This document shows positions 8,150 to 24,104 of a DNA stretch of 64,000 bases, piece after piece. The notes beneath the pieces were generated by a model, which was given only the letters and a program-made list of their open reading frames with translations, made no database searches and was not told the DNA's origin. The first letter of the stretch is position 1. Each line of letters opens with the position of its first letter. The DNA comes from Muribaculum gordoncarteri (GTDB taxonomy: Bacteria > Bacteroidota > Bacteroidia > Bacteroidales > Muribaculaceae), in the NCBI RefSeq assembly GCF_004803695.1, contig NZ_CP039393.1, positions 2,728,001 through 2,792,000 of the forward strand, written 5' to 3'. The position numbers and the translations under genes are program-made.

Positions 8150-8365
8150 TCAGGGGAGCAGACGCTGTAACAGGGTTGTGCCATCGGGAGAATATGGAAT
8201 TATAGCGGCGGCAATCATAATCAATGCCATGACGACTACGACGATAAGCGTTCCGTAGCGCACGGCTGCGGGCGGACGCGTGCCGATGATGTGACGCACC
8301 TTGTCGGAGCGCAGCTCTATGCGGTCGTGAGTGTCAGCAGGTTGTCGGCCATGATTGTTTTCCAT
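8150..8365 (-). CDS. Truncated HlyD-like membrane-fusion stub
   Basis: A 71-residue protein, MENNHGRQPAD..., with DRIELRSDKVRHIIGTRPP followed by one membrane segment (about residues 37-57) and a short tail. The IELRS-KVR-IIG-PP-RYG block is, as far as I recognise it, the N-terminal signature of HlyD-type accessory proteins paired with peptidase-containing ABC exporters in Bacteroidetes. The periplasmic hairpin, lipoyl and barrel domains that normally follow (more than 300 residues) are absent, and only the terminator lies downstream. The ATG at 8365 begins one base after the exporter stop; a longer frame would overlap the exporter by 32 bases. It is either a truncation or a natural anchor-only adaptor. 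Confidence 0.6.
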   Translation of the reverse strand: MENNHGRQPADTHDRIELRSDKVRHIIGTRPPAAVRYGTLIVVVVMALIMIAAAIIPYSPDGTTLLQRLLP

Positions 8366-8366
8366 C

Positions 8367-10595
8367 TCAGTTTCCAAGTTCAAGTTGGTTTTTAACAAGG
8401 TTATAGTAGTGTCCGCGGGCCGCTATCAGCGAGTCGTGGTTGCCCGACTCTACAATTCGCCCTGCATCGAGCACGATTATGTTGTCGGCGTCACGCACCG
8501 TCGACAGTCGATGGGCCACTACCACCACCGTGCGACCACGGTAGAACCGTGACAGGTTGCTCACGATTTCCCGCTCGTTGCGAGCGTCGAGCGAGTTGGT
8601 GGCCTCGTCGAGAAATATGTAGTCGGGGTTGCGGTACACGGCACGGGCAATGAGTATGCGCTGTTTCTGTCCCTGGCTCAGGCCCACCCCGTCGCGTCCT
8701 ATCTTGGTGTTGTATCTCAGCGGCAGCGACATGATGTAGTCATGGATGCATGCCGTTCGGGCGGCCTCCTCGAGCCGGGCCTCGTCGATATCGCCGTCGC
8801 TCACCGCTATGTTGCGCGCTATCGATTCCGAAAATATGACACCCTCCTGCATCACCACTCCGCACCGCCTGCGCCACCATGTCATGCTGTAGCGGTTGAT
8901 GTCGGCACCGGCTATGTCTATGCTCCCGCAATTGACCGGGTAATAGCCGAGCATCAGTTTAATCAGCGTGGTCTTTCCGCTGCCCGACGCCCCAACTATG
9001 GCCGTCACTTGCCCCTGAGGCACCGTAAAGGTTATGTTGTCGAGGGTGTTCTTCAGCGCATGGAGGTCATACCTGAAGTCGATGCCGTTCAACGTTATCG
9101 AACGATTCATGTCGTCGGCATAGCGGGTTAGGAGCTCTCCGTCGTCCTCCTCGTTGCGTCGGCCGTGTATCTCGTTGATGCGTTCAAGCGATATCTTCAC
9201 ATCCTGAAGCGAGTAGATGAAGCTCATGATTTGTGCCACGGGCGAGTTGAGCTGTCCGATGACATATTGCACGGCGAGCATGGCTCCGAGAGTCATGTCA
9301 CCGTTGATTACGGCAGTAGCGGCAAACACCGTTATGACGATGTTCTTGACCTCGTTGATGAATATCGAACCGGCTTCCTGGGTCTGCTGAAGGCTCAGCG
9401 AGCGCATCTGCACCTCAAAGAGGTCGGCCTGCGCATCCTCCCACTCCCAGCGTCGTCGACGCTCACAGTCCTGCAGCTTTATCTCCTGCATGGTGGTGAT
9501 GAACTGGTAGGTGCGGTTCTGGTTCACGGCCTGACACTCAAACAGTTCATAGTCGATCACCTTGCGTCGACGCAGGAATGCCGATATCCACAGGGCATAA
9601 CAGAGGCTGCCGATGACAAACACCATGAAAATCAATTGACTGTAGACAAACAGCACGACTCCAAACACAATGAAGCTCAGCATCGTAAACATTACGCCGA
9701 GAGTCTGCCCGGTAAGAAACGACTGCACGCGCGAGTGGTCGCTCATGCGTTGCAGCAGATCGCCCATAAGCTTTGTGTCGAAGAACGACATAGGCAGCTT
9801 GAGCAGCTTGATGAAAAAGTCGCTCACAAGCGAGATGTTGATGCGCATCGAGATGTGGAGCAGGAGCCAGCGGCGTATAAAGTCGGTGGCGGTGCGTCCG
9901 GTCACTATCATGAGTTCGCCGAGCAGGATGAGCCATATAAGGCCTATGTCGGCATCGTGGATGCCACGGTCGACAATGGCCTGTGTGAGAAACGGCATGG
10001 CAAGCTGCAGCACGCATCCGAGCAGAAGCCCGAGGAATATCTGGGCGAAGTAACCCCGATACTGCTTTATGTAGCCGACGAGAAACCTGAACGAGCGACG
10101 CTCACCCGCCTGTTCCGATTCAGCGTCCGATTGCCCGAAGCGGGGTCCGGGCTGAAGTAGCAGGGCTATGCCCCGGTCCTCGTCGCCGCTTCGTGTGCTT
10201 GCCCATCGCCGCATGAACTCATCACGGCTGTAGGTTAGCAGCCCCTTGCCAGGGTCGGCTATGTGATAACGGCCCCGGCGGTCGATGCGGTAGAGCACCA
10301 CGAAGTGGTTTTGGTTCCAATGCAAGATGGCCGGCAGTGGCGACTGTGACAGCTCACCCGGAGAGAGGCGCACCGAAGCGGTTTCAAATCCGAGTTCCGA
10401 AGCCGCTTGCGACATACCGCGCAGCGACACTCCTTCGGTAGTGGCGTGGCATAGCTCTTCAATCTGCGACAACGTACAGGCCCATCCGTAGTGGCGGCAT
10501 ACCATGGTGAGGCATGCCACGCCACATTGCATCGAGTCGCGCTGTTTTATCCAGGGAAACCGCCTGAATCGCCGTCCGATTGATTGAAAGTCCAT
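8367..10595 (-). CDS. Peptidase-containing ABC exporter (C39, bacteriocin/RiPP type)
   Basis: At 742 residues this is a full PCAT: it cleaves double-glycine leaders and exports the core peptide across the inner membrane. The C39 peptidase (about residues 12-145) has the catalytic Cys in QRDSMQCGVACL, His in WNQNHFVVLY and Asp in HIADPGKG. A six-helix membrane domain follows (about 165-460). The ATPase has Walker A GASGSGKTT (about 535), signature LSQGQKQR (about 638) and Walker B YIFLDEATNSLD (about 658). It is the only exporter beside two GG-leader precursor genes, so it probably serves both cassettes. It lies on the same strand downstream of the left cassette, with a fossil gene end in between. 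Confidence 0.93.
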   Translation of the reverse strand: MDFQSIGRRFRRFPWIKQRDSMQCGVACLTMVCRHYGWACTLSQIEELCHATTEGVSLRGMSQAASELGFETASVRLSPGELSQSPLPAILHWNQNHFVVLYRIDRRGRYHIADPGKGLLTYSRDEFMRRWASTRSGDEDRGIALLLQPGPRFGQSDAESEQAGERRSFRFLVGYIKQYRGYFAQIFLGLLLGCVLQLAMPFLTQAIVDRGIHDADIGLIWLILLGELMIVTGRTATDFIRRWLLLHISMRINISLVSDFFIKLLKLPMSFFDTKLMGDLLQRMSDHSRVQSFLTGQTLGVMFTMLSFIVFGVVLFVYSQLIFMVFVIGSLCYALWISAFLRRRKVIDYELFECQAVNQNRTYQFITTMQEIKLQDCERRRRWEWEDAQADLFEVQMRSLSLQQTQEAGSIFINEVKNIVITVFAATAVINGDMTLGAMLAVQYVIGQLNSPVAQIMSFIYSLQDVKISLERINEIHGRRNEEDDGELLTRYADDMNRSITLNGIDFRYDLHALKNTLDNITFTVPQGQVTAIVGASGSGKTTLIKLMLGYYPVNCGSIDIAGADINRYSMTWWRRRCGVVMQEGVIFSESIARNIAVSDGDIDEARLEEAARTACIHDYIMSLPLRYNTKIGRDGVGLSQGQKQRILIARAVYRNPDYIFLDEATNSLDARNEREIVSNLSRFYRGRTVVVVAHRLSTVRDADNIIVLDAGRIVESGNHDSLIAARGHYYNLVKNQLELGN

Positions 10596-10609
10596 CGCCG
10601 TATATCTAA

Positions 10610-10665
10610 TTGGTGACTAAAGGTTTATCAGTAGGTTATGTTGACGCCGGAGTCGATACCATAGC
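10610..10665 (-). pseudogene. Fossil 3' end of a cassette-B type outer-membrane gene
   Basis: This 56-base stretch matches the 3' end and flank of the outer-membrane gene at 17417-17472 with only 4 differences by eye. On the minus strand it still reads YGIDSGVNITY and a stop (TGA here, TAA in the intact gene); the coding differences are synonymous. It shows that a gene of the cassette-B type once ended directly upstream of the exporter. Confidence 0.75.
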
Positions 10666-10718
10666 AAAGCTTGTTTAGAATACATGCCTATGTATCATTT
10701 CTTTAAGCAAGGGCGGGA

Positions 10719-12806
10719 TTAATCCTGCTTGGCGGTGTTGGAGTCGATCAGGCCTGAGTCATTGTCGCTGTTGTTGAGCGACTTCTTGGCTTGCTTTCGT
10801 GCCTTTCCCTTTGAGAAGAAGTATGTCAGGTTTATGGCGACAAGATTCTTCATCCCCTTCCAGCATGTCGATTCCGTGGCCGAGAAGCCTATGCCGCGGT
10901 AACGCACGTAGTCGTTCTGAGAGGCATACCGCCACTCCACGCCGGCCGATAACGCCCCCTTTTTCCATGACACCGAAGCGTAGTACTGCCAGCCGCTGCG
11001 GGTGACCATGTCGCCGCTAAATGACTTGTCGGGCGAGTTGACGGATGCGATGAACTGCAAGCGGCGATAGGACATCGCCACCATGCCTCCTATGCGGTGA
11101 TAGTTGTGCCGTATGGTTGAGCTTGGCGTTGAGTATCCGTCGTGGAAGTACTGGTAATAGCTCTGCAGCATCATCCAGTTGCATGGCGAGTAGTTGACTA
11201 TCATCGTGCCGTTGAGCTCGTTGCGTGCATTTATCCTCATCGGCATCATGACGATGTTGTCGCCATCCGACAGCAGGCACGGCACGTTGGGATGATGGGA
11301 GTAGAGGTACTCGATTGACGGAGAGAGCGACAACCACCCGTCGGATGTAGAGTACTGGGGCTTAAATGTCAGCGAGAATGTCCTGTAGGGCTTCAGGGCG
11401 GGATTTCCCGTAGCGATGAAGCGTGAGTCGATGTTGACCCGGTTTTCGGCAAGGTCGCCGGTAGTGGGTCGCGTTCCCTTAAGCTTGGCGATGAGGCGTG
11501 TAGAGAATGTGCGCGTAAACCGATAGAAGAGTGTGAGCGACGAATAGGGTATCACGTTGACGAAGCTCTGGCCCGATACGGGGTGCTGTGCAACCGCATT
11601 GGCACCGAGCGACGCGTAGTAACTCAGTCGCTTATAGCGTCCGGTGTAGGCGATGTAGGCGTAGTGCTGGCGCATGTTGAGATAGGATTCGGGGCCGCCG
11701 TTGTAGGACTGGCGCAGCTCCTTGTAGTTGAAGTAGGCGCCTGTGTTGAGCTCGCCTTTCCACAGCGGCGTGGTGTAGTCGGCCTGTGCTATTATCGAAT
11801 AGTAGCGGTTGTCGATGTTGTTGAGTATATCGTAGTCCATCGACGAGTATTGCTCCGGCATCTTGAGCCACAGCCGGTTGTGGGATTCCGATGAGGAGAA
11901 TGTGTTTACCACATTCACCGCAAGGGAGCGTTTGCCGGCAAAGTCATGCCTGAAGTAGAGGTCGGCGCTCCAGCGGTCGTCGTCGCTGCGCAGGTCATGG
12001 TCCCTGAGTCCTGACAAGTCGCGTGCATTGTCGGTGTAAAGAGTCGACTGCTTGTTCCTTATGTGTCCCGGACGGTTGCCGTAGCGCACATTGGCGTTGA
12101 ACAGGTTGGCTCCCTGGTAGCGCTGATATATGAGCTGTCCGTATTGGTAATGTCCCGAATATTGTCCGTCGCGGCTTCGGTAGGATGACAGTGCCGACCG
12201 GTAGTCGTAGTCGGCATTGGTGCTTCGGTCGACATTGCGGTAGTCGATGAAGTAGTTGGCCGTGAGCATATTGAGCGAGTCGGCATAGGTAAGGCTTGCC
12301 TGATCGGTGCCGTAACCGGTGGTCACTGCGTTAAGGGCGTTTATGTAGGCGCTGTAGAGGCGGTCCTTGCGGCGGCGTATCGTCACGTCGATAACCGGGC
12401 CTGAGGCCATCATCTGGTATTTGGCCGGCGGCTCATGGTAGTAGGTCACCTTCTTTATGTCGTTACCCTGATAGGTGCGCAGTGTGGCTGCGTCGGACGG
12501 CATGCCGTTGATGAATATCGCCACGCTCCTCATGTCGGCCGTTTGCAGTGAAGTAGCGCTTATGGCGGTCGAGAACTGGGGCAGGCTTGAGATTGCATCA
12601 AGTGCGTTGGTGCCGAATTCGCGTTGTTTTTTCGTAAGGATTATCTCGTCGCGGTTGCCTACCGACTGCACAAACTCAGCCTGTACGGTCACCTCCTTCA
12701 GCGATATTGTGGTGTCGTTTTTCTCGCGATTGTCGCTTAGGGCGTAGTCGGGAACCGAGATGAAGAGCAGGCACAGCAGGGCTTTTATAATCATGGCAGT
12801 CTTCAT
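10719..12806 (-). CDS. Outer-membrane beta-barrel protein, cassette A
   Basis: ATG 12806 (MKTAMIIKALLCLLFIS) gives a clear signal peptide and 695 residues; it begins 7 bases after the maturase stop. A TonB-plug-like segment (ISLKEVTVQAEF, then NALDAISSLPQF, VAIFINGMPSDAATLR, about residues 30-150) is followed by a long series of Tyr-rich alternating beta-strands, as in the outer-membrane beta-barrel family related to TonB receptors. Unlike its cassette-B paralogue it lacks an N-terminal carboxypeptidase-regulatory-like domain, and its C-terminus is a Lys/Asn-rich tail (KARKQAKKSLNNSDND). It may pass the peptide through the outer membrane or act as receptor; sequence does not decide. It is GC-richer than the maturase next to it. 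Confidence 0.75.
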   Translation of the reverse strand: MKTAMIIKALLCLLFISVPDYALSDNREKNDTTISLKEVTVQAEFVQSVGNRDEIILTKKQREFGTNALDAISSLPQFSTAISATSLQTADMRSVAIFINGMPSDAATLRTYQGNDIKKVTYYHEPPAKYQMMASGPVIDVTIRRRKDRLYSAYINALNAVTTGYGTDQASLTYADSLNMLTANYFIDYRNVDRSTNADYDYRSALSSYRSRDGQYSGHYQYGQLIYQRYQGANLFNANVRYGNRPGHIRNKQSTLYTDNARDLSGLRDHDLRSDDDRWSADLYFRHDFAGKRSLAVNVVNTFSSSESHNRLWLKMPEQYSSMDYDILNNIDNRYYSIIAQADYTTPLWKGELNTGAYFNYKELRQSYNGGPESYLNMRQHYAYIAYTGRYKRLSYYASLGANAVAQHPVSGQSFVNVIPYSSLTLFYRFTRTFSTRLIAKLKGTRPTTGDLAENRVNIDSRFIATGNPALKPYRTFSLTFKPQYSTSDGWLSLSPSIEYLYSHHPNVPCLLSDGDNIVMMPMRINARNELNGTMIVNYSPCNWMMLQSYYQYFHDGYSTPSSTIRHNYHRIGGMVAMSYRRLQFIASVNSPDKSFSGDMVTRSGWQYYASVSWKKGALSAGVEWRYASQNDYVRYRGIGFSATESTCWKGMKNLVAINLTYFFSKGKARKQAKKSLNNSDNDSGLIDSNTAKQD

Positions 12807-12813
12807 GTGCGCG

Positions 12814-14091
12814 TTATTTGCAATGTTCAATGAAATCTATTAAAGAAGTTTCGATATTTGAATCTTGAGCATCCATTTTGCAATAATTACGTTTTTTTGC
12901 ATGGTCACGAGGACAAATTCCCATACATACGGGTAAATACTTGCAATTTAGACATTTGGGATTCTCATAGCTTTTTTCTTGATACAATTTGTCAAAATTG
13001 TTTTTCCATTCAATTTTTCCGTCTTCCTGTAGCTGTCCGGGAGGATTGCTTTCATATAAATCATTGCAAGCAGTGCATTTTACAACACCGCCATTATAAT
13101 TTATAGCATTGTAATACTCCCTATTAGCATAACAGGGCACGAAATTGTCAACGATTTCCATTCGTGCTGCATTATATCCGTAATCATTGAATTCATCAAG
13201 AATTGAAATAGTTGACAATTGGAAATTTTTGTCAACACTTTCCTGCCATACTTTTTTAGGTGTTATGGTCAATTGTTTTCTGTTTTCCGGCGAGATGTAT
13301 TCATTGATTTGACTTACTATTTTGTTAGTTAATGTTTTATGCGTATAATTTATGCGTAGAACAATATTCATATCCTTTAACGCCGACAATATTTTGTCGA
13401 TGTTGCCCAATGTATGTACAAATGCTGAATCGCAGCCGTTTTGGAATTTTACTTTGTCATGGTTCCCTTTATCCCCGTCCAAAGTTATCTGAAATCCGGA
13501 AAATTTCAACCGTTTTAAATCTTTGATTTTATCAGAGGATAGAAAATATCCGTTTGTGGTTGCTGAATTTAGAAATGGAATTTTAGCTTTATCACATTTT
13601 TCTATTGCGTATTCGCTAATTGGAGCTATCACTTGTTTAAAGTACATGAATGGCTCTCCTCCAAACCATTCTATGTGGAGAGATGTGATATTTCGCTCAT
13701 CAATCATGTAATCAATGTGTTTCTTTACTCGAGTTATAGTTTCCTGCGACATCATTGACGGAATGTGATTCTGTATGCAGTACCAGCATTTGTAATTGCA
13801 ATTCAGTGTCGGTAAAATTACTAAAAAATAATCTTTTGAATGTATTGTTTCAAGATTTCTTTTTCGGATTACCTCAATTTCATCAACATTATCATCAATT
13901 ATAAACTCATTGTCGACTAATTTTTGATAAAAGGATGGTGCCGATTCTTTTAATATTTCAGGGTTGCAAATTAAAGGTTTTATCTTATTACCCAATTCTA
14001 TAGGGAGAGTAAAGAATTTATGTGATACCCCGTTATACCAATAGCTTTTTGAGTCTTTAGATAGGATATAGTTGTAATGACTTGGTTTCAT
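12814..14091 (-). CDS. Radical SAM/SPASM peptide maturase, cassette A
   Basis: A 425-residue enzyme of the radical SAM peptide-modifying type. The SAM cluster motif is CNYKCWYC (CX3CX2C, about residues 98-105), followed by EWFGGEPFMYF and a TTNGYFLS segment. The C-terminal SPASM part carries many Cys: CYANREYYN, VVKCTACND, NPKCLNCKYLPVCMGICP, NYCKMD, enough for two auxiliary clusters. Residues 1-90 form a precursor-recognition-like N-domain. Such enzymes form Cys-to-carbon thioether or related crosslinks; the Cys-rich precursor encoded 53 bases upstream is the obvious substrate (inference). The gene is AT-rich compared with its surroundings. Confidence 0.9.
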   Translation of the reverse strand: MKPSHYNYILSKDSKSYWYNGVSHKFFTLPIELGNKIKPLICNPEILKESAPSFYQKLVDNEFIIDDNVDEIEVIRKRNLETIHSKDYFLVILPTLNCNYKCWYCIQNHIPSMMSQETITRVKKHIDYMIDERNITSLHIEWFGGEPFMYFKQVIAPISEYAIEKCDKAKIPFLNSATTNGYFLSSDKIKDLKRLKFSGFQITLDGDKGNHDKVKFQNGCDSAFVHTLGNIDKILSALKDMNIVLRINYTHKTLTNKIVSQINEYISPENRKQLTITPKKVWQESVDKNFQLSTISILDEFNDYGYNAARMEIVDNFVPCYANREYYNAINYNGGVVKCTACNDLYESNPPGQLQEDGKIEWKNNFDKLYQEKSYENPKCLNCKYLPVCMGICPRDHAKKRNYCKMDAQDSNIETSLIDFIEHCK

Positions 14092-14107
14092 AATTATATG
14101 GTTTTAA

Positions 14108-14144: not shown

Positions 14145-14372
14145 TTAAGGTTCTTCTACCTTGCCTCCTCCGGCTTCAAATCCGTCCTCGTTTTCATCGA
14201 CAGGACAAGCGCATCCCGCTTTGCGATTGACACATTGCATGTCCAATTCGCAAGCACATCCTACTACTGAATTGGAGCATTGATACTGTAAAGTTATGCC
14301 TGAACGACCTCCTTTAACCTCCAATGCTTCTAACTCTGAGAGTTCTTGAAATGAAAATATACTCTTAAGCAT
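14145..14372 (-). CDS. Double-glycine RiPP precursor peptide A (Cys-rich)
   Basis: A 75-residue peptide. Leader residues 1-22 (MLKSIFSFQELSELEALEV then KGG) end in Gly-Gly with the hydrophobic spacing typical of C39-processed leaders. The 53-residue core holds six Cys in two similar units: QCSNSVVGCAC and QCVNRKAGCAC, i.e. Q-C-x-N-x3-G-C-A-C, separated by ELDM. The tail is acidic and Gly-rich (DENEDGFEAGGGKVEEP). It sits between a secreted DUF3244-like gene and the maturase. I infer Cys-based crosslinks placed by the adjacent radical SAM enzyme and leader removal by the C39 exporter. Confidence 0.85.
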   Translation of the reverse strand: MLKSIFSFQELSELEALEVKGGRSGITLQYQCSNSVVGCACELDMQCVNRKAGCACPVDENEDGFEAGGGKVEEP

Positions 14373-14471: not shown

Positions 14472-14846
14472 CTATTTTACAAAATTTCCTATATAGGTTG
14501 TTTCATCGATGTTAAGGTATAGGGTGTAGCTTATGCCTTTAGTCAATCCTGTTATTGTAAACTCTTGGCATTGATTATTGGTGCTTGACGGATACCCGCT
14601 CCACACCATGTTGTTATTTTTTAAAACAACTACAGTTACATTATCACTGTATTCGCCATATACGCGTAACACATCATTGTCATCGATGGTGACATAAGGA
14701 GAATGTTTTGACGGCATTCTTTTGGGAAGGTTTTTATTATCTGGATGGTCATTTTCAGTGCATACAGGAATAATATCTTCTCCTAATAGCATTATATTCA
14801 TTGAACATATAGCAGCAATAATTAATGATATAAATCTAGTTTTCAT
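14472..14846 (-). CDS. Secreted DUF3244-like protein, cassette A
   Basis: A 124-residue protein with an N-terminal signal peptide (MKTRFISLIIAAICSMNIMLL) and a small beta-sandwich-like C-terminal domain (SPYVTIDDNDVLRVYGEYSDN to the end) of the kind called DUF3244 in Bacteroidetes. The last 76 residues are nearly identical to those of the cassette-B protein, while the N-terminal parts are unrelated. It is the first gene of the peptide operon, 98 bases before the precursor. Its role is unknown; a periplasmic chaperone, immunity or binding protein are all possible. Confidence 0.65.
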   Translation of the reverse strand: MKTRFISLIIAAICSMNIMLLGEDIIPVCTENDHPDNKNLPKRMPSKHSPYVTIDDNDVLRVYGEYSDNVTVVVLKNNNMVWSGYPSSTNNQCQEFTITGLTKGISYTLYLNIDETTYIGNFVK

Positions 14847-14872: not shown

Positions 14873-14880
14873 CAAATATA
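14873..14880 (-). promoter_or_regulatory. -7 box of the cassette A peptide operon
   Basis: Read on the minus strand this is TATATTTG (TAnnTTTG). It lies 26 bases upstream of the DUF3244-like start, and the operator array begins 31 bases upstream of it, a usual activator position. Confidence 0.65.
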
Positions 14881-14910: not shown

Positions 14911-15011
14911 AGTGCGCAAAAAGTGCGCATTTTCAAAAAATGTTATTCTTTAGTGCGCAAAAAGTGCGCATTTTCAAAAAATGTTATTCTTTAGTGCGCA
15001 AAAAGTGCGCA
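14911..15011. repeat. Operator-like iteron array, cassette A (period 41)
   Basis: AGTGCGCA occurs six times at 14911, 14922, 14952, 14963, 14993 and 15004. The two copies in each pair are 11 bases apart (one helical turn) and pairs repeat every 41 bases (about four turns). The array lies between the TPR-HTH regulator stop and the peptide operon promoter, so all sites face the same side of the helix. I infer a cooperative binding site, most simply for the regulator encoded next to it. Confidence 0.75.
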
Positions 15012-15029
15012 AAAAACGTATTAATACAT

Positions 15030-16799
15030 TTATAATGAGCGGATAAATGAGTCCCAATCTCGGGCTGACGCTTTCTCAATTTTGAATACTTTTGCATATA
15101 GTCTAGATCTAATAGATGTTACGGTTTCTTTTGAGCGATTAACCATTTTGCTGATGTTGGACGGGCTAATGCCTATCTTTATGAGCATTGTCACTCTCCA
15201 TTCCAATGCACTCATGAATCTGTCGGGATGCAGTTTTTTATAAAAATCAGGACAATTGGAAATTATGGATTTTTCAAGAGCTTTCCACTCATTATATGAT
15301 AGATTGAAATTATTATCCGAAATATTTCTTTTTATCTTCCCAACAATCTCGCTTGACATTAATTTATTGTCGGAAATTTGTTTGGAACTTGTCAAATCTT
15401 CCAGTTGTGCCGTGGTTTGATTTAATGTGTTTTCTAATTCGGTAATGTAGTCGGTCAATGAATTTACTTTCTCATTATATGAATGGTTTTCTAAAAGCAG
15501 ATTTGTTATTTTCGCATGCAATTCTTCCGTTACTTTCAATTTTTCATTGAGAATATTCTCAGTTTCGCTCTCATGTAAGAATTTCATATTATTAAGTAAT
15601 TCTATTTGGTGTTGTGATTTCAATTTTATTGATTTCCACCAAAAGAATATAAAGAGCATAATCAATATAGATATAGCTGACAATATTATTATAATCTTGT
15701 TTTTGCGCGCATTATTGACTTTTAAGTCGCTGTTTTCTATTTTATATAGTGAATAGTCATAATTTGCCTTTACACGAGCTACAGCTTCAGCACCCTCTAT
15801 CTTTCTAATTGAATCAACCGCATCGAACGCTTTGTTATTGTATTTTAAAGCATCATGCCATTGCATTTTTTGTATGTGATACAGTGTAATATTTCTATAA
15901 GCATTCCTTTTTGCATATATAGAGCCGTTATCACATAACCATAATAGATATGGCAATGCTTGTTGTGATTTGCCCCGTTGCATATAAATTTTGGATGTTA
16001 TAGCATATAATACACTTTTTAAATTCTCGGTTTTATAATCATACATAAGAGCTTTCTCTATTAGAGAATCGGCTACCTCTTTGTTGCCCAATGAGTTTTC
16101 AAGATATGCATATTGTGAGAGTAGACATCCAGATAATTCCTCTTCATTGATACTTTGTGATAACTCATATGCTTTCTTATAACAGATTAATGCGCTATCT
16201 TCATGATTCATGTTAATGTAAGTGTGAGCTATCTCTTTCAATCCATCAATTATAAACAATGTGTCGTTTAGCGCATAGGATAAATCCAATGATTTTTTAT
16301 TAGCGTTAAGCGCATATTCAAAAAGACCTTGTCTATAATATAAATCACCGATTTGGGTATATATGTACGTTCTTAATCTGTCATTATCGTTTGAAATGAG
16401 GGAGTTGACTGCTTTCTGGTAGTAGTCGAGGGCGCGGGGAGCGTCGCCGAGGTCGCTGTAGACTCGTCCGGCGTAATATAGGGCAAGCGGTGTGAGATCG
16501 GGGTCGGAGTGGCCGGTGAAGTACTCGACCACGGGGGCTATCATCGAGTCGTTGCGGTGCTCGATGTAGGCCTTGTCGCGTGACTTTATAAGCATCAGGT
16601 CGTAACGCATCCGCGTTGCCTTGTCGGCTTGATTGATGGCGGGTGACAGTGAGTCGAGGAGCGCGATTGCGCTGTCGGGGCAGGTGTCGGCGAGCCGTCC
16701 GGCGCGGTCGATGTCGTCGCGCAGACGCGAGTTGTCGGCACACCCGGCGACGACGGCGATGCACACGACGGTGATGAATATGTGTAACAAATGCTTCAT
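15030..16799 (-). CDS. TPR lipoprotein-type membrane regulator with C-terminal HTH, cassette A
   Basis: A 589-residue protein. The signal sequence ends in a lipobox (VVAGC, Cys20). TPR-like helical repeats fill about residues 25-360 (LALYYAGRVYSDLGDAPRALDYY and similar). One membrane segment (about 366-388, IIIILSAISILIMLFIFF) is followed by a coiled coil (about 395-470) and a C-terminal helix-turn-helix-like domain (MLIKIGISPSNISKMVNRS, then SIRSRLYAKVF) ending DWDSFIRSL. This fits a sensor outside the inner membrane joined directly to a DNA-binding domain. The first 126 codons are almost identical to cassette B and GC-rich; the remainder is AT-rich and divergent, so the gene is a chimera. 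Confidence 0.8.
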   Translation of the reverse strand: MKHLLHIFITVVCIAVVAGCADNSRLRDDIDRAGRLADTCPDSAIALLDSLSPAINQADKATRMRYDLMLIKSRDKAYIEHRNDSMIAPVVEYFTGHSDPDLTPLALYYAGRVYSDLGDAPRALDYYQKAVNSLISNDNDRLRTYIYTQIGDLYYRQGLFEYALNANKKSLDLSYALNDTLFIIDGLKEIAHTYINMNHEDSALICYKKAYELSQSINEEELSGCLLSQYAYLENSLGNKEVADSLIEKALMYDYKTENLKSVLYAITSKIYMQRGKSQQALPYLLWLCDNGSIYAKRNAYRNITLYHIQKMQWHDALKYNNKAFDAVDSIRKIEGAEAVARVKANYDYSLYKIENSDLKVNNARKNKIIIILSAISILIMLFIFFWWKSIKLKSQHQIELLNNMKFLHESETENILNEKLKVTEELHAKITNLLLENHSYNEKVNSLTDYITELENTLNQTTAQLEDLTSSKQISDNKLMSSEIVGKIKRNISDNNFNLSYNEWKALEKSIISNCPDFYKKLHPDRFMSALEWRVTMLIKIGISPSNISKMVNRSKETVTSIRSRLYAKVFKIEKASARDWDSFIRSL

Positions 16800-17203
16800 A
16801 GCTTCCGCGAATATACGAATAATCCGCGAAATTCACCCAATAAAAGTGGCGGGCGGAGGGGAGGGATATGCGGCGTGCGTGTGCTCCGCGTGACCTCCGC
16901 TCAATCATCAAATCCCCGCGATAGCGTGAGAGCTGCGTAGCTGCTCAATAAGTTTAGCCTCATGCAAATACGCCCTTGGGTGCGTGCAGCGTGAGGTCAT
17001 GTCGTGCCCCCACCATCCCCGAGGGCTGCGTTAGCTGCCCAATAAAATGTTATCGTTGCCGGGTGGAGCGTTTTATTGGGCAACTACGTAGCCCTTTTCC
17101 TTTTTTGTTATCGCTTTTTACCCGTGCTGCGGACGCCTAACGGCGGCCTTGCGCGGGCCTAACGTTATTAAGCAGCTAACGCAGCTTTGGCGCTAACGCG
17201 GGG
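16421..17203. repeat. Long direct repeat, left copy
   Basis: This segment is nearly identical by eye to 23321-24104, with scattered substitutions and one 1-base indel. It covers the first 126 codons of the regulator and about 400 bases of upstream DNA. Identity stops abruptly at both ends: on the left inside the regulator reading frame (after LDYY), on the right in GC-rich filler. Confidence 0.9.
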
Positions 17204-17434: not shown

Positions 17435-17472
17435 TTAGTAGGTTATGTTGACGCCGGAGTCGATGCCGTAGC
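17417..17472 (-). repeat. 3'-end repeat of outer-membrane gene (intact copy)
   Basis: This covers the last 12 codons, the stop and 18 bases beyond. It is the partner of the fossil at 10610-10665 (52 of 56 bases the same by eye). Confidence 0.75.
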
Positions 17473-19744
17473 TTGAGGTTGAGCGGTTGCCCTTGCGGAG
17501 CCTTTTTCCGAAGTTAAGGCTGTAGCGCACGCCTATGCTTACGAGGTTGGCAAAGTTCTTCAGGTAATAGTCGGAGTACTCGGGGTGTACGCTTGACAGC
17601 ACCCAGTTTCGCTGCCTGATGCCGTGCTTTGAGAATATTTGTGATATCGATGCCGAGAATGTCCATTGGCGATAGCGGTAGCTGACATCCACACTGCTGA
17701 ATCGTGATCTTTCGTTGAGATTGTTGGTGCTCAACTGGTATCCCGGGATGAGGGTGAAGTTGGCGTTTACCGTCCATGTGTCCCAGTAGAAGGATGCCTG
17801 TGCATCGGCATTCCAGGTGCATTTATCATATCGGAATCCCTCGCCTCGGGTGGAGTATTTGCCCCATCCGCCCCACACTGCGAGCGACAGATGGTTGAGA
17901 AGGTTGTTGACGCTCATCGAGAGTGACATGCCCATTCGGCGGTTGTTGTGGCAGTTCTCGGGACGCATTAGAAACTTGCCGGCGATTTCCGACGAGGGGT
18001 CGTCGACATAGCTGTAAACGTTCATTATCGGTCGCTTTACATAATTGTAGAACACTTCGCCCGAAGCGTAGAACTTTCCGTGGCCGTATTGGATCGACAG
18101 TCGGTTGGAGGTGGTTGTCGTCGACTTGAGATCGGGATTACCGGTGCGGTATAGAAGCTCGTTTACGGGTGTGAACACATTGGAATAGCGTGACAGGCCC
18201 GGTGACGACGGCTGCCACTGAAGCTGGTATCCCGCACTGAAGTCGTTGCCGAAATAGCGGTTTAGCGACATAGTAAAGCTGGGCCTGAGCATTGAGCTTG
18301 TGACCCGATTATAGCGAAGTCCGGCAGCAAACGAGTAGCCGATGTCGAGCAGTCGTCCGCCAATTGAGGCGTAGCCGTAGAAGACATGCGAACTTGCATC
18401 GTCGGCAATCGGGTTGCCGTTGTTTATCGTGGTCTTTCGGTCGGAGTTGGTGAATCGGTATTGGATTCCGTATCGGGTGCTTACCGACGAGTAGCGGTGG
18501 GAGTAGAGGGCCTCACCGCCGATGAACCATGCTGTGTTGTTGATTTTGTTGAGGTCGGAGTAGCCCGTGGTGTTGACTATGTCGCGGTAGTAGTCGCCAC
18601 GGCTGAGCGAGGTTGTGACATTCAGCTCCATCACGCCGTTGGCGCTTGTGTTTTCGCGATAGTATAGGTCGAGAGTGGGCGCGAGCGACTTGAAGTCGCG
18701 ACTTGTGCGTTCGGTGTAGGAGGAACTTATCTCCTGCACTTCGGTGTCCTCGTCTTGATTCTGGCTATGCTGGTCAAGCAGCAGCGACGCGATGAATATG
18801 CGCTTGTCGGACGGCTGTCGCGTGTAGTCGATGCGCAGGCTGTTGTAGCGGTCGATTGTTGTCGACGGAAGTCCGTGATAGTACAGGCGGGTGACGTTGC
18901 CGCCTCCTATGTACTCTTCCTCCTTGTGGGAATACTCCTTGTCGGAGTCGCGGAACCCTCCCGAGTAGTTGATTGACACCTCATTGGCTCCGTGTCGGTA
19001 GGATGCCGCCACCTGCTGCGAGGTGCGTTTTGCGGTCAATGCCGGATTCAGGTAGGCCATTACGCTTCCTCCCTTGTCGACAGGCACGGTTATGATGTTG
19101 ACCCAGCATGCCCCGTAGCGCACATCGGGGTAGCTGCAGTACTCTACTCTGGCAATGTTTTCAGGAATCAGAGCCGTGAGGTCCTCGATTCGGCGCTGTA
19201 CGCCGTTGATGAGTATCTTTGCGCTCTGCCCGTTGATTGTTATCGTGTTGGTGAGTGAGTTTACTTTCAGTTCAAGCGACTTGAACGACAATGAGTTCAG
19301 TAGTCCCATCATGCCCGGCGCGCGCTTAATCTCCTCAGCCGATGGAATGAGGATGGTGCGGTCGGTAAGCCGATTTACGGCCTTGGCCGACACGGTCACT
19401 TCGGCCAGCCCGATTGTTGAGGGTGACATGGCCACGCTTCCAAGGTCGATGTCGCTGCCGGCCCCTGAAAGTGAGAGCGACAGGCGGCTATAGGAGGTGG
19501 CGTCCACTGTGATGATGAGCTGCTCAGTGACACTGTCGACATTGACGGTAAATGTTCCTTTGCCGTCGGATGTTCCGCGTGCTATTACGGTTGAGTCAGG
19601 TGATGCGATTGTCACTATGGCTCCCGGCACCGGGTCCTTGAGGGTGTTGTCGACTATGCGTCCGCGCACTGTGAAAGCCTCGGCGGTCAATGCCGAAATG
19701 ATTGCAACTAATGTGATAGATAGAATTTTTATACTGATGCGCAT
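17435..19744 (-). CDS. Outer-membrane beta-barrel protein with N-terminal CarboxypepD-regulatory-like domain, cassette B
   Basis: 769 residues with signal peptide (MRISIKILSITLVAIISALTAEA). An Ig-like carboxypeptidase-regulatory domain (FTVRGRIVDNTLKDPVPGA to about 110) precedes a plug-like segment (LAEVTVSAKAVNRLTD, ILINGVQRRIEDL, about 115-220) and a C-terminal barrel of Tyr/Ser-rich strands, ending YGIDSGVNITY. It belongs to the same broad family as the cassette-A barrel but is clearly divergent and has the extra domain. It starts 70 bases downstream of the cassette-B maturase. A role in passing the mature peptide across the outer membrane, or in its uptake, is inferred from context only. 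Confidence 0.77.
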   Translation of the reverse strand: MRISIKILSITLVAIISALTAEAFTVRGRIVDNTLKDPVPGAIVTIASPDSTVIARGTSDGKGTFTVNVDSVTEQLIITVDATSYSRLSLSLSGAGSDIDLGSVAMSPSTIGLAEVTVSAKAVNRLTDRTILIPSAEEIKRAPGMMGLLNSLSFKSLELKVNSLTNTITINGQSAKILINGVQRRIEDLTALIPENIARVEYCSYPDVRYGACWVNIITVPVDKGGSVMAYLNPALTAKRTSQQVAASYRHGANEVSINYSGGFRDSDKEYSHKEEEYIGGGNVTRLYYHGLPSTTIDRYNSLRIDYTRQPSDKRIFIASLLLDQHSQNQDEDTEVQEISSSYTERTSRDFKSLAPTLDLYYRENTSANGVMELNVTTSLSRGDYYRDIVNTTGYSDLNKINNTAWFIGGEALYSHRYSSVSTRYGIQYRFTNSDRKTTINNGNPIADDASSHVFYGYASIGGRLLDIGYSFAAGLRYNRVTSSMLRPSFTMSLNRYFGNDFSAGYQLQWQPSSPGLSRYSNVFTPVNELLYRTGNPDLKSTTTTSNRLSIQYGHGKFYASGEVFYNYVKRPIMNVYSYVDDPSSEIAGKFLMRPENCHNNRRMGMSLSMSVNNLLNHLSLAVWGGWGKYSTRGEGFRYDKCTWNADAQASFYWDTWTVNANFTLIPGYQLSTNNLNERSRFSSVDVSYRYRQWTFSASISQIFSKHGIRQRNWVLSSVHPEYSDYYLKNFANLVSIGVRYSLNFGKRLRKGNRSTSSYGIDSGVNITY

Positions 19745-19814: not shown

Positions 19815-21062
19815 TTAACACGATGTCACGTTTAATAATATTCGATTAGTTACAATGCTGTCCTTTTCATCATCATCGAAGTTGTGCATACAATAGTCGG
19901 TTGATCCCATTGATTGCTTTGTACAACCACCATGGCACAATGGAAATATTCTACAATGACGGCAATTGGGATTTTTAAATTTTGAAGCCATTCGTTTTTC
20001 CAATGAGTCGTTTTCCCAGATGATTTCTCCTTCCGATGAAAGATATCCGTCCCTTGGTGTCTTTGCAAAGTCAACCGCTGTACATTTGTAGATATCTCCG
20101 TTGTAATTTATCATACAGCTGTTTCTTATGTCCCCATAACAAAAACTACGGAAATCCATTTTGGCTGAAGGGATACCCTCGTTACTGAATGCGGTGATCA
20201 TGTTATCCATGTAGGCATATATTTCCTTGCGATTGTTATCCTGCCATACAATCTGTAAGTCTACACGAATCAGTTTCTTTTCATCACAAGTCAGTTCATT
20301 GAAATAAGCGGGAATCTGCCCTATTGATGCCATGTTGTCCTTTGAACAGTTCACTCTCAATGTTACGCTCATTCCGTTTTTAACCATTAATTTTATATTA
20401 TTCACTATATGAGTGAATGTGTCATCGCCCTTATGGCGAAAACGTATGCTGTTGTGTATATCTTTGTCGCCGTCAAGAGTTATTTGCGCTCCAGTGAAAT
20501 TCAACATTTTCATTGCCTTTATTCTTTTTTCCGACAGGAGGAAACCGTTGGATGTCATGTTGGCCGAGAACGGAATTTGGGCTTCAGATGATTTGTCATA
20601 GGCATGTTTTAATATTGGCACCATGACTTCGTTATAATATAGCATTGGCTCTCCACCGAAAAATGATATTGTCAAATTTTTGCCCTCATTTATTATTTTG
20701 TCAATCAGCGACTTGACGCGTTCAATCATTTCAGGTGCCATTTTTGATGCAATGTGTGATTCATAGCAGTACCAACAATGAAAATTACAGTTAATCGTAG
20801 GATTTATTATTAGATGAAAACTTGTGTCATTTTTTTCGATTGTCAATGCTCTCTTAATAAACTCATCACGTTCATCTACAATGTCATCAACAATGAATCC
20901 CTCCGTTACAAGTTTACTTAACAACGACTCATTTACATCAAGGATGTTGGTGTCACATATAATTTTATCGGGTATAACTACTGTAGTATCGGTCAATGCA
21001 TTATAGATTACCGTAGAATTTTCAGTAGGGTGCAGATATGTGTTGTATATGCTTTTTTTCAT
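19815..21062 (-). CDS. Radical SAM/SPASM peptide maturase, cassette B
   Basis: 415 residues, paralogous to the cassette-A enzyme. The cluster motif is CNFHCWYC (about residues 91-98), followed by FFGGEPMLYY and TSNGFLLS; the A and B enzymes share TLDGD around the middle. The SPASM part contains SFCYGDIRNSC, YKCTAV, NPNCRHCRIFPLCHGGC and DYCMH, enough Cys for two auxiliary clusters. The N-terminal 85 residues differ from cassette A, as expected if they read different leaders. The gene is AT-rich. The NCQC-repeat precursor is encoded immediately upstream, separated by a strong hairpin. Confidence 0.9.
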   Translation of the reverse strand: MKKSIYNTYLHPTENSTVIYNALTDTTVVIPDKIICDTNILDVNESLLSKLVTEGFIVDDIVDERDEFIKRALTIEKNDTSFHLIINPTINCNFHCWYCYESHIASKMAPEMIERVKSLIDKIINEGKNLTISFFGGEPMLYYNEVMVPILKHAYDKSSEAQIPFSANMTSNGFLLSEKRIKAMKMLNFTGAQITLDGDKDIHNSIRFRHKGDDTFTHIVNNIKLMVKNGMSVTLRVNCSKDNMASIGQIPAYFNELTCDEKKLIRVDLQIVWQDNNRKEIYAYMDNMITAFSNEGIPSAKMDFRSFCYGDIRNSCMINYNGDIYKCTAVDFAKTPRDGYLSSEGEIIWENDSLEKRMASKFKNPNCRHCRIFPLCHGGCTKQSMGSTDYCMHNFDDDEKDSIVTNRILLNVTSC

Positions 21063-21093
21063 TGTAAGGATTGATTTGGGGTGTATTTAATTA

Positions 21094-21132
21094 AGATGTG
21101 TCTGGACATATATTAATTGTCCAGACACATCT
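21094..21132 (-). terminator. Hairpin between precursor B and maturase B
   Basis: AGATGTGTCTGGACA (21094-21108) pairs perfectly over 15 bases with TGTCCAGACACATCT (21118-21132) around a 9-base loop, followed on the minus strand by TTAATTAAATA. It is placed exactly like the cassette-A hairpin and likely lets most transcripts stop or be stabilised after the precursor. Confidence 0.75.
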
Positions 21133-21144
21133 ATTAATTGAGGT

Positions 21145-21402
21145 CTATTCTAAACTGGGATCTGTTGAAATGTAACGACATTGACAATTGTTACCATTAC
21201 ATTGGCAGTTATTGGAACTTTCTGAACCACATTGACAATTATTGCTTCTACATTGGCAATTGTTACCATTGCATTGGCAGTTATCGGTTGTTTCATGTCC
21301 TGTGTGGTCTAAGCCTCCAAACACAAAACATTCTTCTTCTTCAGAGAGCCGATTTTGTACATTCGCGACCAATTCTTTTAATGATAGAAATGTTGTTTGC
21401 AT
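21145..21402 (-). CDS. Double-glycine RiPP precursor peptide B with NCQC repeats
   Basis: 85 residues. The leader (MQTTFLSLKELVANVQNRLS, then EEEECFVFGG, residues 1-30) ends in Gly-Gly. The core contains five NCQC units (Cys 42/44, 49/51, 56/58, 66/68, 73/75), mostly with a seven-residue period (CQCNGNN, CQCRSNN) and one longer spacer, GSESSN. That gives ten core Cys in CXC pairs, plus one Cys in the leader. No family name comes to mind for this core. The order precursor then radical SAM/SPASM enzyme is the same as in cassette A. Regular CXC spacing suits repeated thioether or ring formation by the maturase; simple metal binding is the main alternative. Confidence 0.85.
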   Translation of the reverse strand: MQTTFLSLKELVANVQNRLSEEEECFVFGGLDHTGHETTDNCQCNGNNCQCRSNNCQCGSESSNNCQCNGNNCQCRYISTDPSLE

Positions 21403-21427
21403 ATCATTTGTTATTTAATTAGTAATT

Positions 21428-21465
21428 ATGCGAACTTTGAACCGCGCGTATCTCTTGGTTCGCAT
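21428..21465. promoter_or_regulatory. Inverted repeat upstream of precursor B
   Basis: ATGCGAAC (21428-21435) and GTTCGCAT (21458-21465) form a perfect 8-base inverted repeat with a 22-base loop that itself contains GAACCGCGCG. It lies in the 100-base gap between the DUF3244-like gene and the precursor. It could be an operator or an RNA hairpin. Confidence 0.4.
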
Positions 21466-21502
21466 TGTTATTTTATACTAAGATTATAACCTTATATCTT
21501 TA

Positions 21503-21856
21503 TTATTTAGTGAATTCACCGATGTAGGTTGTTTCATCGATGTTAAGGTATAGGGTGTAGTTTATGCCTTTAGTCAATCCTGTTACTGTAAACTCTTGGC
21601 ATTGATTATTGGAGCTTGACGGGTACCCGCTCCACACCATGCTGTTATTGTTAAAAACAACTACAGTTACATTATCACTGTATTCGCCATATACGCGTAA
21701 CACATCATTGTCATCGATGGTGACATAAGGAGAATAACCTAATGAACGATCAACAATCGTTTGTTGCTCTTTGCTTTGTTCAACGCTTATTGGCTTTTCT
21801 TTTGCAAATAGTGCTAATGAAAATATCATCATTATTGCACAAAGGAAATGTTTCAT
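21503..21856 (-). CDS. Secreted DUF3244-like protein, cassette B
   Basis: ATG 21856 (MKHFLCAIMMIFSLALFAKE) gives a signal peptide and 117 residues. From SPYVTIDDNDVLRVYG to the end it is nearly identical to the cassette-A protein (changes such as LKNNN to FNNNS, ISYT to INYT). Upstream of that point the two are unrelated. The sharply bounded similarity in a region where neighbouring genes differ strongly points to gene conversion or a strict functional constraint. It is the first gene of the cassette-B peptide operon. Confidence 0.65.
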   Translation of the reverse strand: MKHFLCAIMMIFSLALFAKEKPISVEQSKEQQTIVDRSLGYSPYVTIDDNDVLRVYGEYSDNVTVVVFNNNSMVWSGYPSSSNNQCQEFTVTGLTKGINYTLYLNIDETTYIGEFTK

Positions 21857-21880
21857 AATTTTAGGGTTATTGGTTTCTTG

Positions 21881-21888
21881 CAAAGAAA
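21881..21888 (-). promoter_or_regulatory. Possible -7 box of the cassette B peptide operon
   Basis: The minus-strand reading TTTCTTTG differs from TAnnTTTG at one position. It is 24 bases upstream of the start codon and 34 bases from the nearest repeat site, matching the cassette-A geometry. Confidence 0.4.
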
Positions 21889-21922
21889 TGAATGCTCGTT
21901 TATACTTGCAAGTTTTTAATTA

Positions 21923-21979
21923 CGCAAAATTTTACAAAACCATTAATTTAACGAGTGTTAATCTCGCAAAATTTTACAA
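21923..21979. repeat. Operator-like direct repeat, cassette B (period 42)
   Basis: CGCAAAATTTTACAA occurs exactly at 21923-21937 and 21965-21979. The sequence differs from the cassette-A sites, but the 42-base spacing and the position (between regulator stop and DUF3244-like promoter) are the same. This fits a cassette-specific site for the cassette-B regulator. Confidence 0.7.
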
Positions 21980-21995
21980 GCTCTCAATAACTCCT

Positions 21996-23699
21996 TTATA
22001 ATGAACCTATAAAGTCATCCCAATTCTTAAATGCAGAATCCTCTTTTTTAAAGTACCTTTGATATAATCGTGATCGTATCGATGAAATTGAGCTAAAGCT
22101 TTTCATCATTATCGGGGCTATTTCACCTGGAGCAAACCCCACTTTTATAAGCATAGATACTCTAAGATCGCTAGTTTTATGTACTCCGATATAACTCAAT
22201 GTTTCAAAAAATGATGGGTATGCTGATTCTATCTCTTTCATAAGCTCTCCCCAATCCGTTTCCTGAGGTCGAAATCCATTACTTTTGAATTTAAGTAGTA
22301 TTGGGCTTAGGAATATGGAAACCGCAGGTTCGCTATCAATGATTGCATCGTGTTTGTTGCAAAATTGAGAACTGATTTGAACGCTTTTATCGTTGACGGA
22401 TGTATAATTCTGTATCAAATCAAGTTCTTCTTTTTTCTTTGAGAGGTGCTTTTTAACACCAATGTCGCTGTTGTCGATTATACGTTGTATCTTTTGATAT
22501 TCATTGATAGCTTGCAAACGCTTGTTCTTTAGATATATGATGCATGCAGTTGCCGATACAGCCACGATTATGAGTATTAACAGCAATGTCAGGATATAGA
22601 ATTGATTTCTTGCGTTTTGCGCTGACAATTTCTCATTTTCTCGTTCGCGAATAGCGAAGTTGTATTTTGCATTTATTTTAGCAAGTTCCTCATTGTTATA
22701 ACTTTTATTCAATGAATCGTTATATAGTATATACATGTTTATGTATTCTACTGTTTGCGACACATCTTCTTTTGCCATTGCAATGTTGGCCAATAAACCG
22801 CTTGCCGATTTTTTGTTGAGCAATGAACCACTGTCGAGCATCCAATGGATGTGAGGCAGTGCCTTGGCTGTGTCATTTAGTTCGATATAAATATTGGAAG
22901 CTATTGAGTGTACCTGCTGCTCTATGTCGGAAGGATAGCATTCCAAAACCGGTTTGAATATTGAATCGGCCTTCTCAAACATATCCAATTGAATGTAGTA
23001 TGATGCAATTTGCGAACGTACTCGGTTAAGTCCTTTTAGGTCATTTAGCCTCAATTGATTTTCCAAAGCTTTGTTATAGCATATTAGTGCGCTGTCTGGT
23101 TTGCCAAGTTGGCGAAAGCATATCGCAGATTGAAGAAGTATCCTGACAATGCGTGTTGTGTCATGCATTTCTTTAGCACATTTGTGGGCAATGTCAAAAT
23201 AATATTTTGCATTTACGTATATGTCCTGTTGTTGAAAAATTGTTCCAATCTGTCCGGAGATTAGATATCGCATCATATTGTTTTCCGGATTGTCATTGAG
23301 GGAATTAAGTGCGTTATAATAGTAGTCGAGGGCGCGGGGGGCGTCGCCGAGGTCGCTGTAGACTCGTCCGGCGTAGTATAGGGCAAGCGGGGTGAGATCG
23401 GGGTCGGTGTGGTCGGTGAAGTATTCGACCACGGGGGCTATCATTGAGTCGTTGCGGTGCTCGATGTAGGCCTTGTCGCGTGATTTTATTAGCATCAGGT
23501 CGTAACGCATCCGCGTTGCCTTGTCGGCTTGATTGATGGCGGGTGACAGTGAGTCGAGGAGCGCGATTGCGCTGTCGGGACGGGTGTCGGCGAGCCGTCC
23601 GGCGCGGTCGATGTCGTCGCGCAGACGCGAGTTGTCGGCACATCCGGCGACGACGGCGATGCACACGACGGTGATGAATATGTGTAACAAATGCTTCAT
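21996..23699 (-). CDS. TPR lipoprotein-type membrane regulator with C-terminal HTH, cassette B
   Basis: ATG 23699 (MKHLLHIFIT) is chosen by identity with cassette A, giving 567 residues; an upstream in-frame ATG at 23732 is possible. Lipobox Cys20, TPR-like repeats to about 350, membrane segment about 363-388 (ILTLLLILIIVAVSATACIIYL), coiled coil, and a C-terminal HTH-like part (MLIKVGFAPGEIAPIMMKS, SIRSRLYQRYF, ending NWDDFIGSL). The first 126 codons are nearly the same as in cassette A; the rest is AT-rich and only distantly similar, including the HTH, in line with the different operator sequence. Proposed role: senses a signal outside the inner membrane and switches its own peptide operon. 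Confidence 0.8.
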   Translation of the reverse strand: MKHLLHIFITVVCIAVVAGCADNSRLRDDIDRAGRLADTRPDSAIALLDSLSPAINQADKATRMRYDLMLIKSRDKAYIEHRNDSMIAPVVEYFTDHTDPDLTPLALYYAGRVYSDLGDAPRALDYYYNALNSLNDNPENNMMRYLISGQIGTIFQQQDIYVNAKYYFDIAHKCAKEMHDTTRIVRILLQSAICFRQLGKPDSALICYNKALENQLRLNDLKGLNRVRSQIASYYIQLDMFEKADSIFKPVLECYPSDIEQQVHSIASNIYIELNDTAKALPHIHWMLDSGSLLNKKSASGLLANIAMAKEDVSQTVEYINMYILYNDSLNKSYNNEELAKINAKYNFAIRERENEKLSAQNARNQFYILTLLLILIIVAVSATACIIYLKNKRLQAINEYQKIQRIIDNSDIGVKKHLSKKKEELDLIQNYTSVNDKSVQISSQFCNKHDAIIDSEPAVSIFLSPILLKFKSNGFRPQETDWGELMKEIESAYPSFFETLSYIGVHKTSDLRVSMLIKVGFAPGEIAPIMMKSFSSISSIRSRLYQRYFKKEDSAFKNWDDFIGSL

Positions 23700-24104
23700 A
23701 GCTTCCGCGAATATACGAATAATCCGCGACATTCGCCCAATAAATGTGGCGAGGCGGCGGGGAGGGATATGCGGCGTGCGTGTGCTCCGCGTGACCTCCG
23801 CTCAATCATCAAATCCCCGCGATAGCGTGAGAGCTGCGTAGCTGCTCAATAGGGTTAGCCTCATGCAAACGCGCCTTTAGGTGCATGCAGCGTGAGGTCA
23901 TGTCGCGCCCCCACCATCCCCGAGGGCTGCGTTAGCTGCCCAATAAAATGTTATCGTTGCCGGGTGGAGCGTTTTATTGGGCAACTACGTAGCCCTTTTT
24001 CTTTTTTGTTATCGCTTTTTACCCGTGCTGCGGACGCCTAACGGCGGCCTTGCGCGGGCCTAACGTTATTAAGCAGCTAACGCAGCTTTGGCGCTAACGC
24101 GGGG
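23321..24104. repeat. Long direct repeat, right copy
   Basis: Partner of 16421-17203. It includes the regulator 5' part, upstream region and nested palindromic units. Confidence 0.9.

Follow-up and report, generated by a model that had tools for sequence, protein, structure and literature searches.

Two tandem RiPP-like peptide cassettes, apparently exchangeable, precede a single C39 exporter in a Bacteroidales genome

We identified, between positions 8150 and 24104 of the window, two paralogous five-gene units followed by a single C39 exporter and a short HlyD-like protein. The window is the whole 64,000-nucleotide stretch analysed here (G000:C1:2728001-2792000), part of a near-complete 3.43-Mb genome, and all features described between positions 8150 and 24104 lie on its minus strand. 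Both units have the order regulator, DUF3244-like secreted protein, GG-leader Cys-rich precursor, radical SAM (rSAM)/SPASM enzyme and outer-membrane barrel. We refer to the right unit as cassette A and to the left unit as cassette B; the exporter and its short companion, the mini-MFP, come after B. The best overall explanation appears to be an arrangement of two RiPP cassettes, exchangeable and placed one behind the other, in front of one exporter, a reading to which we assign a probability of about 0.6. It draws on the gene content, the pairing of precursor with maturase, the co-variation of receptor and maturase, the independence of the exporter, the geometry of the operators and the mosaic structure of the cassettes, each established by sequence comparison. 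The first-pass annotation had described the same order, twice on the minus strand, with one exporter, and every gene that it named was found in that order and on that strand; its right border, 24104, coincides exactly with the start of an 808-bp front-end repeat. The locus is flanked on the left by pyruvate/2-oxoacid oxidoreductase genes and on the right by an arabinofuranosidase. Elsewhere in the window, a complete rRNA operon (5S, LSU, tRNA, SSU) occupies 41871-46938 of the minus strand, where the listed ORFs are chance frames.

According to this reading, a lipobox-bearing TPR regulator would bind its own tandem operator and turn on an operon of DUF3244, precursor, maturase and receptor genes. 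The radical SAM/SPASM enzyme would modify the Cys-rich core, presumably by a crosslink. The shared C39 exporter, helped by a minimal HlyD-like transmembrane (TM) protein, would then cut the GG leader and move the core out of the cytoplasm, and the private TonB-dependent-type receptor of the cassette may handle the product at the outer membrane. The low-GC middle of each cassette (regulator 3' half, operator, DUF3244, precursor and maturase) would have been imported, through recombination, into a frame of constant ends, and cassette B would derive from a tandem duplication with later replacement of its interior.

Regulators A and B are clear paralogues (E=9e-129), as are the maturases (34% identity, E=2e-77) and, more distantly, the barrels (21%, E=1e-6), while the DUF3244-like proteins are 88% identical over 77 aa. 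The two precursors, when compared, had no alignable sequence in common. DUF3244-like protein A (21503-21856) matches PF11589 at E=8e-4 and 19.8 bits, below the Pfam gathering cut-off of 25, which relatives at L070, L102 and L034 exceed; copy B lies at 14472-14846. Used alone as a query against the PDB, the DUF3244-like protein gave no significant match.

Precursor A (21145-21402) is an 85-aa peptide with a GG leader and five NCQC blocks in its core, and precursor B (14145-14372) a 75-aa peptide with a GG leader and two CxNxxxGC core motifs. Maturases A (19815-21062) and B (12814-14091) both carry the CxxxCxxC motif and seven SPASM-region cysteines, all invariant across 18 maturases. Of 297 genomes of the family, 48 had strong matches to a profile of the two, and the relatives' set comprises 60 loci around maturases, mostly from draft genomes; a barrel follows the maturase in 47 of the 51 testable cases. 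We searched for precursors as GG-leader ORFs with at least 2 core cysteines no more than 450 bp upstream of a maturase. Such an ORF was present beside 35 of 61 maturases, compared with 16 of 255 (6%) other long ORFs used as a control, and upstream of only 10 of 112 barrels or exporters to which the same rule was applied; the other 26 maturases had no ORF satisfying it. Core type follows maturase type. The enzymes most closely related to maturase A (L068 and L075) adjoin cores with [N/D]NC-x-C blocks, the L068 core, next to the closest rSAM of all, being a precursor A homologue with [ND]NCPC repeats (NNCACGADNCPCKANNCPCKGDNCPC). Relatives of maturase B (L070, L071, L072, L073, L074 and the Prevotella locus L150) have C-x-N-x-x-x-(G/Q)-C cores, mostly in two copies. 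Because GG-leader, Cys-rich precursors adjoin the maturase in relatives as well, a RiPP role for the precursor-maturase pairs is well supported, and the locus has the sequence hallmark of a radical SAM RiPP cluster, a conserved precursor gene beside a peptide-modifying rSAM/SPASM enzyme. The earlier suggestion of two different GG-leader peptides, each with its own rSAM/SPASM maturase near a C39 exporter, is thus borne out at the level of sequence, and the conservation of precursors beside maturases in relatives, on which that suggestion had been made to depend, was found.

The solved enzyme nearest to the maturases is CteB (5wgg, E=5e-32), a thioether-forming ranthipeptide maturase, and a Cys-Asn C-beta thioether has a precedent in NxxcA (PMC8326336). 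Given these two analogies, our reasoned guess is that the crosslink is probably a thioether from Cys to nearby residues such as Asn. The likeness to the SCIFF/ranthipeptide maturases (CteB, PapB, NxxcB) lies in the Cys-rich cores and in CteB as nearest solved homologue; the difference is that the window enzymes score far under the NCBIfam cut-offs. Among the matches listed, no maturase of the set reached the ranthipeptide, SCIFF, PapB, CefB or TIGR04463 cut-off (62 against 425 bits for SCIFF, 107 against 340 for PapB, and likewise far below for CefB and TIGR04463), and membership in these named rSAM families was rejected. Members of family A4 match named maturase models as relatives only. Precursors P0005 and P0010 were also compared with the TIGR04149-type GG-Bacteroidales precursors and had no NCBIfam match at E<=0.1.

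The exporter (8367-10595) is a C39 peptidase-containing ABC exporter (PCAT), with Pfam matches to Peptidase_C39 (E=3e-34), ABC_membrane and ABC_tran, and it is the only one for both cassettes. A C39 peptidase fused to an ABC exporter, together with GG leaders in the precursors, is the combination expected of double-glycine export. Among 36 loci with maturase, barrel and exporter, the pairwise identities of maturase and exporter were uncorrelated (r=-0.05, a value reached by 704 of 1000 permutations), and those of maturase and barrel were correlated (r=0.57, reached by 0 of 1000), the latter by permutation of labels rather than on an explicit tree. On this measure the receptor belongs with the cassette, and the exporter behaves like a facility shared among cassettes, in keeping with a single exporter serving both. 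At L072, L088 and L108, three of the 60 relatives' loci, one exporter likewise accompanies two maturases. The proposal that one machine exports both peptides gains support from these loci and from the lack of correlation between exporter and maturase divergence. At L125, two maturases lie in tandem with separate short regulator-like ORFs, with no exporter in the 19 kb covered.

Barrel A (17435-19744) comprises a carboxypeptidase-regulatory-like domain, a plug and a barrel, and matches PF00593 above the cut-off. An AlphaFold model for barrel B (10719-12830), built from 29 homologues, predicts a plug and a barrel with moderate confidence (pLDDT 73.7). Every one of the 50 best PDB matches of the barrel was a TonB-dependent receptor, among them receptors for heme, siderophores, copper and colicins/microcins; the plug of YncD/PqqU was also matched by the family profile. 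The modelled plug domain and large beta barrel thus agree with a TonB-dependent receptor, and the fold search ruled out a TolC-like export channel. The first-pass annotation had peptides passed through or sensed at the outer membrane; the barrel there is predicted to have a plugged TonB-dependent-receptor fold and not that of a known export-type channel.

The mini-MFP (8150-8362; also open from a TTG at 8398, giving 8150-8398) is a protein of about 70 aa consisting of an HlyD cytoplasmic tail and one TM helix. It belongs to a conserved family (A3) of 48-97 aa proteins encoded directly after or close to the exporter. Where the exporter has at least 58% identity to that of the window, 16 of 20 testable loci had a member; below that value, 0 of 18 had one, which ties the mini-MFP to one exporter clade. 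The same tail and TM segment opens HlyD-type proteins of 433-461 aa in other families of the order; unlike these membrane fusion proteins (MFPs) of type I export, the mini-MFP ends after its TM helix and has no periplasmic hairpin, lipoyl or barrel domain. Adaptors of intermediate length (168-226 aa; L214, L215 and L216) have the HlyD tail and TM helix, and in them the long helical hairpin seems absent. The existence of intermediate and full-length forms in other families therefore suggests that the adaptor was cut down stepwise to tail and TM helix. A decayed full-length HlyD was ruled out, since at least 16 loci keep the short form and the genome studied here has two mini-MFP genes (one chromosomal, one on a plasmid) and no full-length protein with the mini-MFP N-terminus. 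What had been taken for an HlyD-like stub is better described as a conserved short gene, apparently a real minimal adaptor. As it has no periplasmic part, it is unlikely to connect to a TolC channel, and the peptide may instead be released into the periplasm.

Regulator A (21996-23699, with an alternative start at 23732) has a lipobox, a TPR domain, a TM helix and a C-terminal HTH, and regulator B (15030-16799) is its paralogue. The lipobox Cys is invariant in 18 of 18 regulators. A long TM helix separates the TPR superhelix, similar in fold to Rap pheromone receptors and LGN among others, from the C-terminal HTH-like domain; the TPR domain is predicted to be periplasmic and the HTH cytoplasmic. 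Tandem half-sites one helical turn apart, predicted to be operators, lie between the regulator and the DUF3244 gene. Operator A (21916-21979) has two copies of TTGTAAAATTTTGCG, 42 bp apart, the proximal one 49 bp upstream of a -7-like box (TTTCTTTG, 21881-21888) that precedes the DUF3244-like start by 32 bp. Operator B (14911-15015) has 2.5 copies of a 41-bp unit with tandem pairs of 11-bp period, and the -7 box of the cassette B operon (TATATTTG, 14873-14880) is 50 bp from the proximal pair and 34 bp from the start codon. The half-site pairs are TTTTTGCGCAC in B, a degenerate TTGTAAAAT/TTGCG in A and TTGTAAAAT at a third locus of the genome (L034); in relatives they are TGTCAACTT (L070), TTTGCAAAC (L102) and TTACGGAAAT (L085). 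Across 19 regulator regions, which count as an effective sample of fewer than 19 because some of the regulators are related, the mean self-match at lag 11 was 7.58, compared with 6.21 +/- 0.19 after shuffling (0 of 100 shuffles reached it). No excess was seen in these regions at lags 8-10 or 12-15.

The -7 consensus of Bacteroides promoters is TAnnTTTG. A simple motif scan, run with no formal null, placed the proximal pair about 44-54 bp upstream of a box of this kind in 9 of 10 cases (63 bp in L173); where a following start codon was called, the box lay 24-34 bp ahead of it. We read this as the layout of an activator site. The 11-bp pattern is absent with the other HTH type, found in about half of the regulators (e.g. 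L068, L073 and L109). That each cassette has its own membrane regulator, as first proposed, is supported by these comparisons and sharpened by the predicted private tandem operators.

Only three stretches of the cassettes are nearly identical. The 808-bp front-end repeat (24104-23297 in A, 17203-16397 in B, 95.9% identical) comprises the upstream region, whose repeated copies lie at 23700-24104 (the first half of the repeat) and 16800-17203, and the 5' end of the regulator. In the DUF3244 gene, 217 bp of the 3' half are likewise 95.9% identical. Finally, a 36-bp scar of the barrel A 3' end (10630-10665, 94% identical to 17437-17472, E=4e-10) lies between barrel B and the exporter. Outside these stretches the cassettes have diverged throughout. 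Third-position GC content (GC3) follows the same boundaries. It is 0.77-0.80 over regulator codons 1-130, which are common to A, B and L034, and 0.31-0.36 in the remainder (0.77, then 0.36 after codon 140, in A; 0.79, then 0.31, in B). It is 0.28-0.39 in the DUF3244, precursor and maturase genes and steps up at the maturase/barrel junction to 0.70-0.75 in barrels and exporter, against 0.66-0.74 in ordinary genes of the window. A weaker trend was seen in relatives, in which GC3 of the regulator 5' part exceeds that of the 3' part in 16 of 22 cases (0.55 compared with 0.45). Besides import, low GC3 could partly reflect low expression. The remnant of barrel A that lies ahead of the exporter is a sign of tandem duplication and module replacement; on the simplest reading, the cassettes are mosaics formed by tandem duplication of cassette A and later replacement of the interior of the second copy, with the constant regulator 5' end as a docking point. 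An invertible or shuffling locus was rejected, as no inversion is visible and the three front-end copies lie on one strand, one of them about 2 Mb away. The upstream elements (23730-24150 and 16830-17200) recur at more than 12 places in the genome, partly inverted, and have the look of an interspersed-repeat family.

The third front-end copy, at L034:3704-14237, has a regulator 5' end that is 96% identical, a DUF3244 gene and a different back end, which encodes a small secreted peptide, two Porph_ging/GLPGLI proteins, a TonB receptor and one more secreted protein. Its GC3 drops at the same position of the regulator, from 0.80 to 0.34. A further cassette is carried by a small, mobilisable plasmid (L035/L036; G000:C3, 28257 bases, internal period 14810) assembled as nearly two 14.8-kb circles. 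It has a precursor with three C-x-C-xxGAGQ repeats (L036:6567-6785), an rSAM enzyme, a TonB-type barrel, a C39 exporter and a mini-MFP, and lacks a regulator; its GC3 is about 0.26-0.35, compared with 0.63 for the relaxase. A 5.2-kb stretch of the plasmid is 92% identical to the Muribaculaceae plasmid CP061010.1, so the host probably belongs to the Muribaculaceae. The five-gene unit is not fixed among relatives, as DUF3244 or a regulator was detectable in about 50% or less of their loci. A scan of named genomes, with near relatives left out, gave matches of only 21-37%, spread from Flavobacteria to Prevotella.

Parts of this arrangement are known. Bacteroidales clusters that combine an rSAM enzyme and a GG precursor with a C39 transporter and an outer-membrane protein, and in some cases a TPR protein, are reported in the sections of Fernandez-Cantos et al. 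2023 (PMC10352776) considered here; BGC2 has a TPR protein, PCAT, MFP and OMP, and some clusters have a PCAT and an OMP and no MFP. The window shares all five of the former components, and differs from those clusters, as described in these sections, in its DUF3244 partner, tandem cassettes apparently sharing an exporter, probable module exchange, operator geometry and mini-MFP. In B. thetaiotaomicron, BT_3442/BT_3441 encode a multi-domain TPR protein followed by a small DUF3244-type Ig-like protein, ahead of a MACPF cluster (PMC2954219); this resembles the front end seen here, with the difference that pore-former genes are controlled there. The regulators match the BT3442 family (NF053779) over their full length (E=1e-22), and at 80 bits against a cut-off of 940 they are homologues, not members. 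Hence the first-pass view of an undescribed unit holds only in part, the component cluster and the TPR-DUF3244 front end having been described. The open-licence papers considered contain no account of this combination, of such a minimal adaptor, of paired receptors and maturases, of the operator code or of module exchange, and on that basis these appear new.

What the peptides do may be read in several ways. They could be narrow-spectrum bacteriocins, two cassettes widening the arsenal, with the receptor or the DUF3244-like protein protecting the producer or mimicking the target. We hold this only tentatively. The fast turnover of core, maturase and receptor and the plasmid-borne cassette in the same genome would fit an arms race, the best fold matches of the barrel include microcin/colicin receptors such as Cir, and a TPR and DUF3244-type front end precedes the MACPF pore-former cluster of B. 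thetaiotaomicron (PMC2954219); however, no immunity gene is recognisable at the locus, nor were any found in the similar clusters, in the sections of PMC10352776 considered. An autocrine signal, in which each peptide, once exported, returns to the periplasm by way of its cognate receptor and there binds the TPR domain of the regulator of its cassette, which then activates that cassette, seems somewhat unlikely. The invariant lipobox Cys in 18 regulators, the private operators and a receptor whose divergence tracks the maturase all agree with it, and the TPR fold is close to Rap pheromone receptors, among others; but TPR folds are generic, LGN and consensus TPRs matching equally well, and the plasmid cassette has no regulator. 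A fuller version, which we consider rather doubtful, has each low-GC module bringing peptide, maturase, operator and DNA-binding domain into constant ends, made up of promoter and regulator N-terminus on the upstream side and of receptor and exporter on the downstream side, and so creating a private peptide channel with an export-recapture-sensing loop, the minimal-adaptor exporter serving all.

Dense CxC/NCxC motifs, and receptor fold matches to OprC (copper), ZnuD (zinc) and siderophore receptors among others, would be expected if the Cys-rich products bound metal in the manner of methanobactin and the TonB-dependent receptor imported the complex. Yet these are the general matches of TonB receptors, there is no metal regulator, and the cores differ widely between cassettes, which makes metal acquisition improbable. 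It is still harder to credit that cassette A is a stranded remnant, deprived of its exporter by the insertion of cassette B and no longer yielding a secreted product. The scar does show that the end of barrel A once adjoined the exporter, but the five A genes are all undamaged and have their operator and -7 box, exporter type does not go with maturase type, and relatives also keep two maturases per exporter.

If two exchangeable cassettes do stand in series before one exporter, gut Bacteroidales would have a concrete means of widening their range of secreted modified peptides with the exporters they already possess, by swapping a specificity module between constant ends. The locus makes testable the export of two unrelated RiPPs by one C39 exporter, export with an HlyD protein cut down to tail and TM helix, and the reading of peptides by cassette-private TonB-type receptors and TPR regulators. 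The operator geometry may also offer a way to predict the target genes of orphan TPR-HTH regulators in this order.
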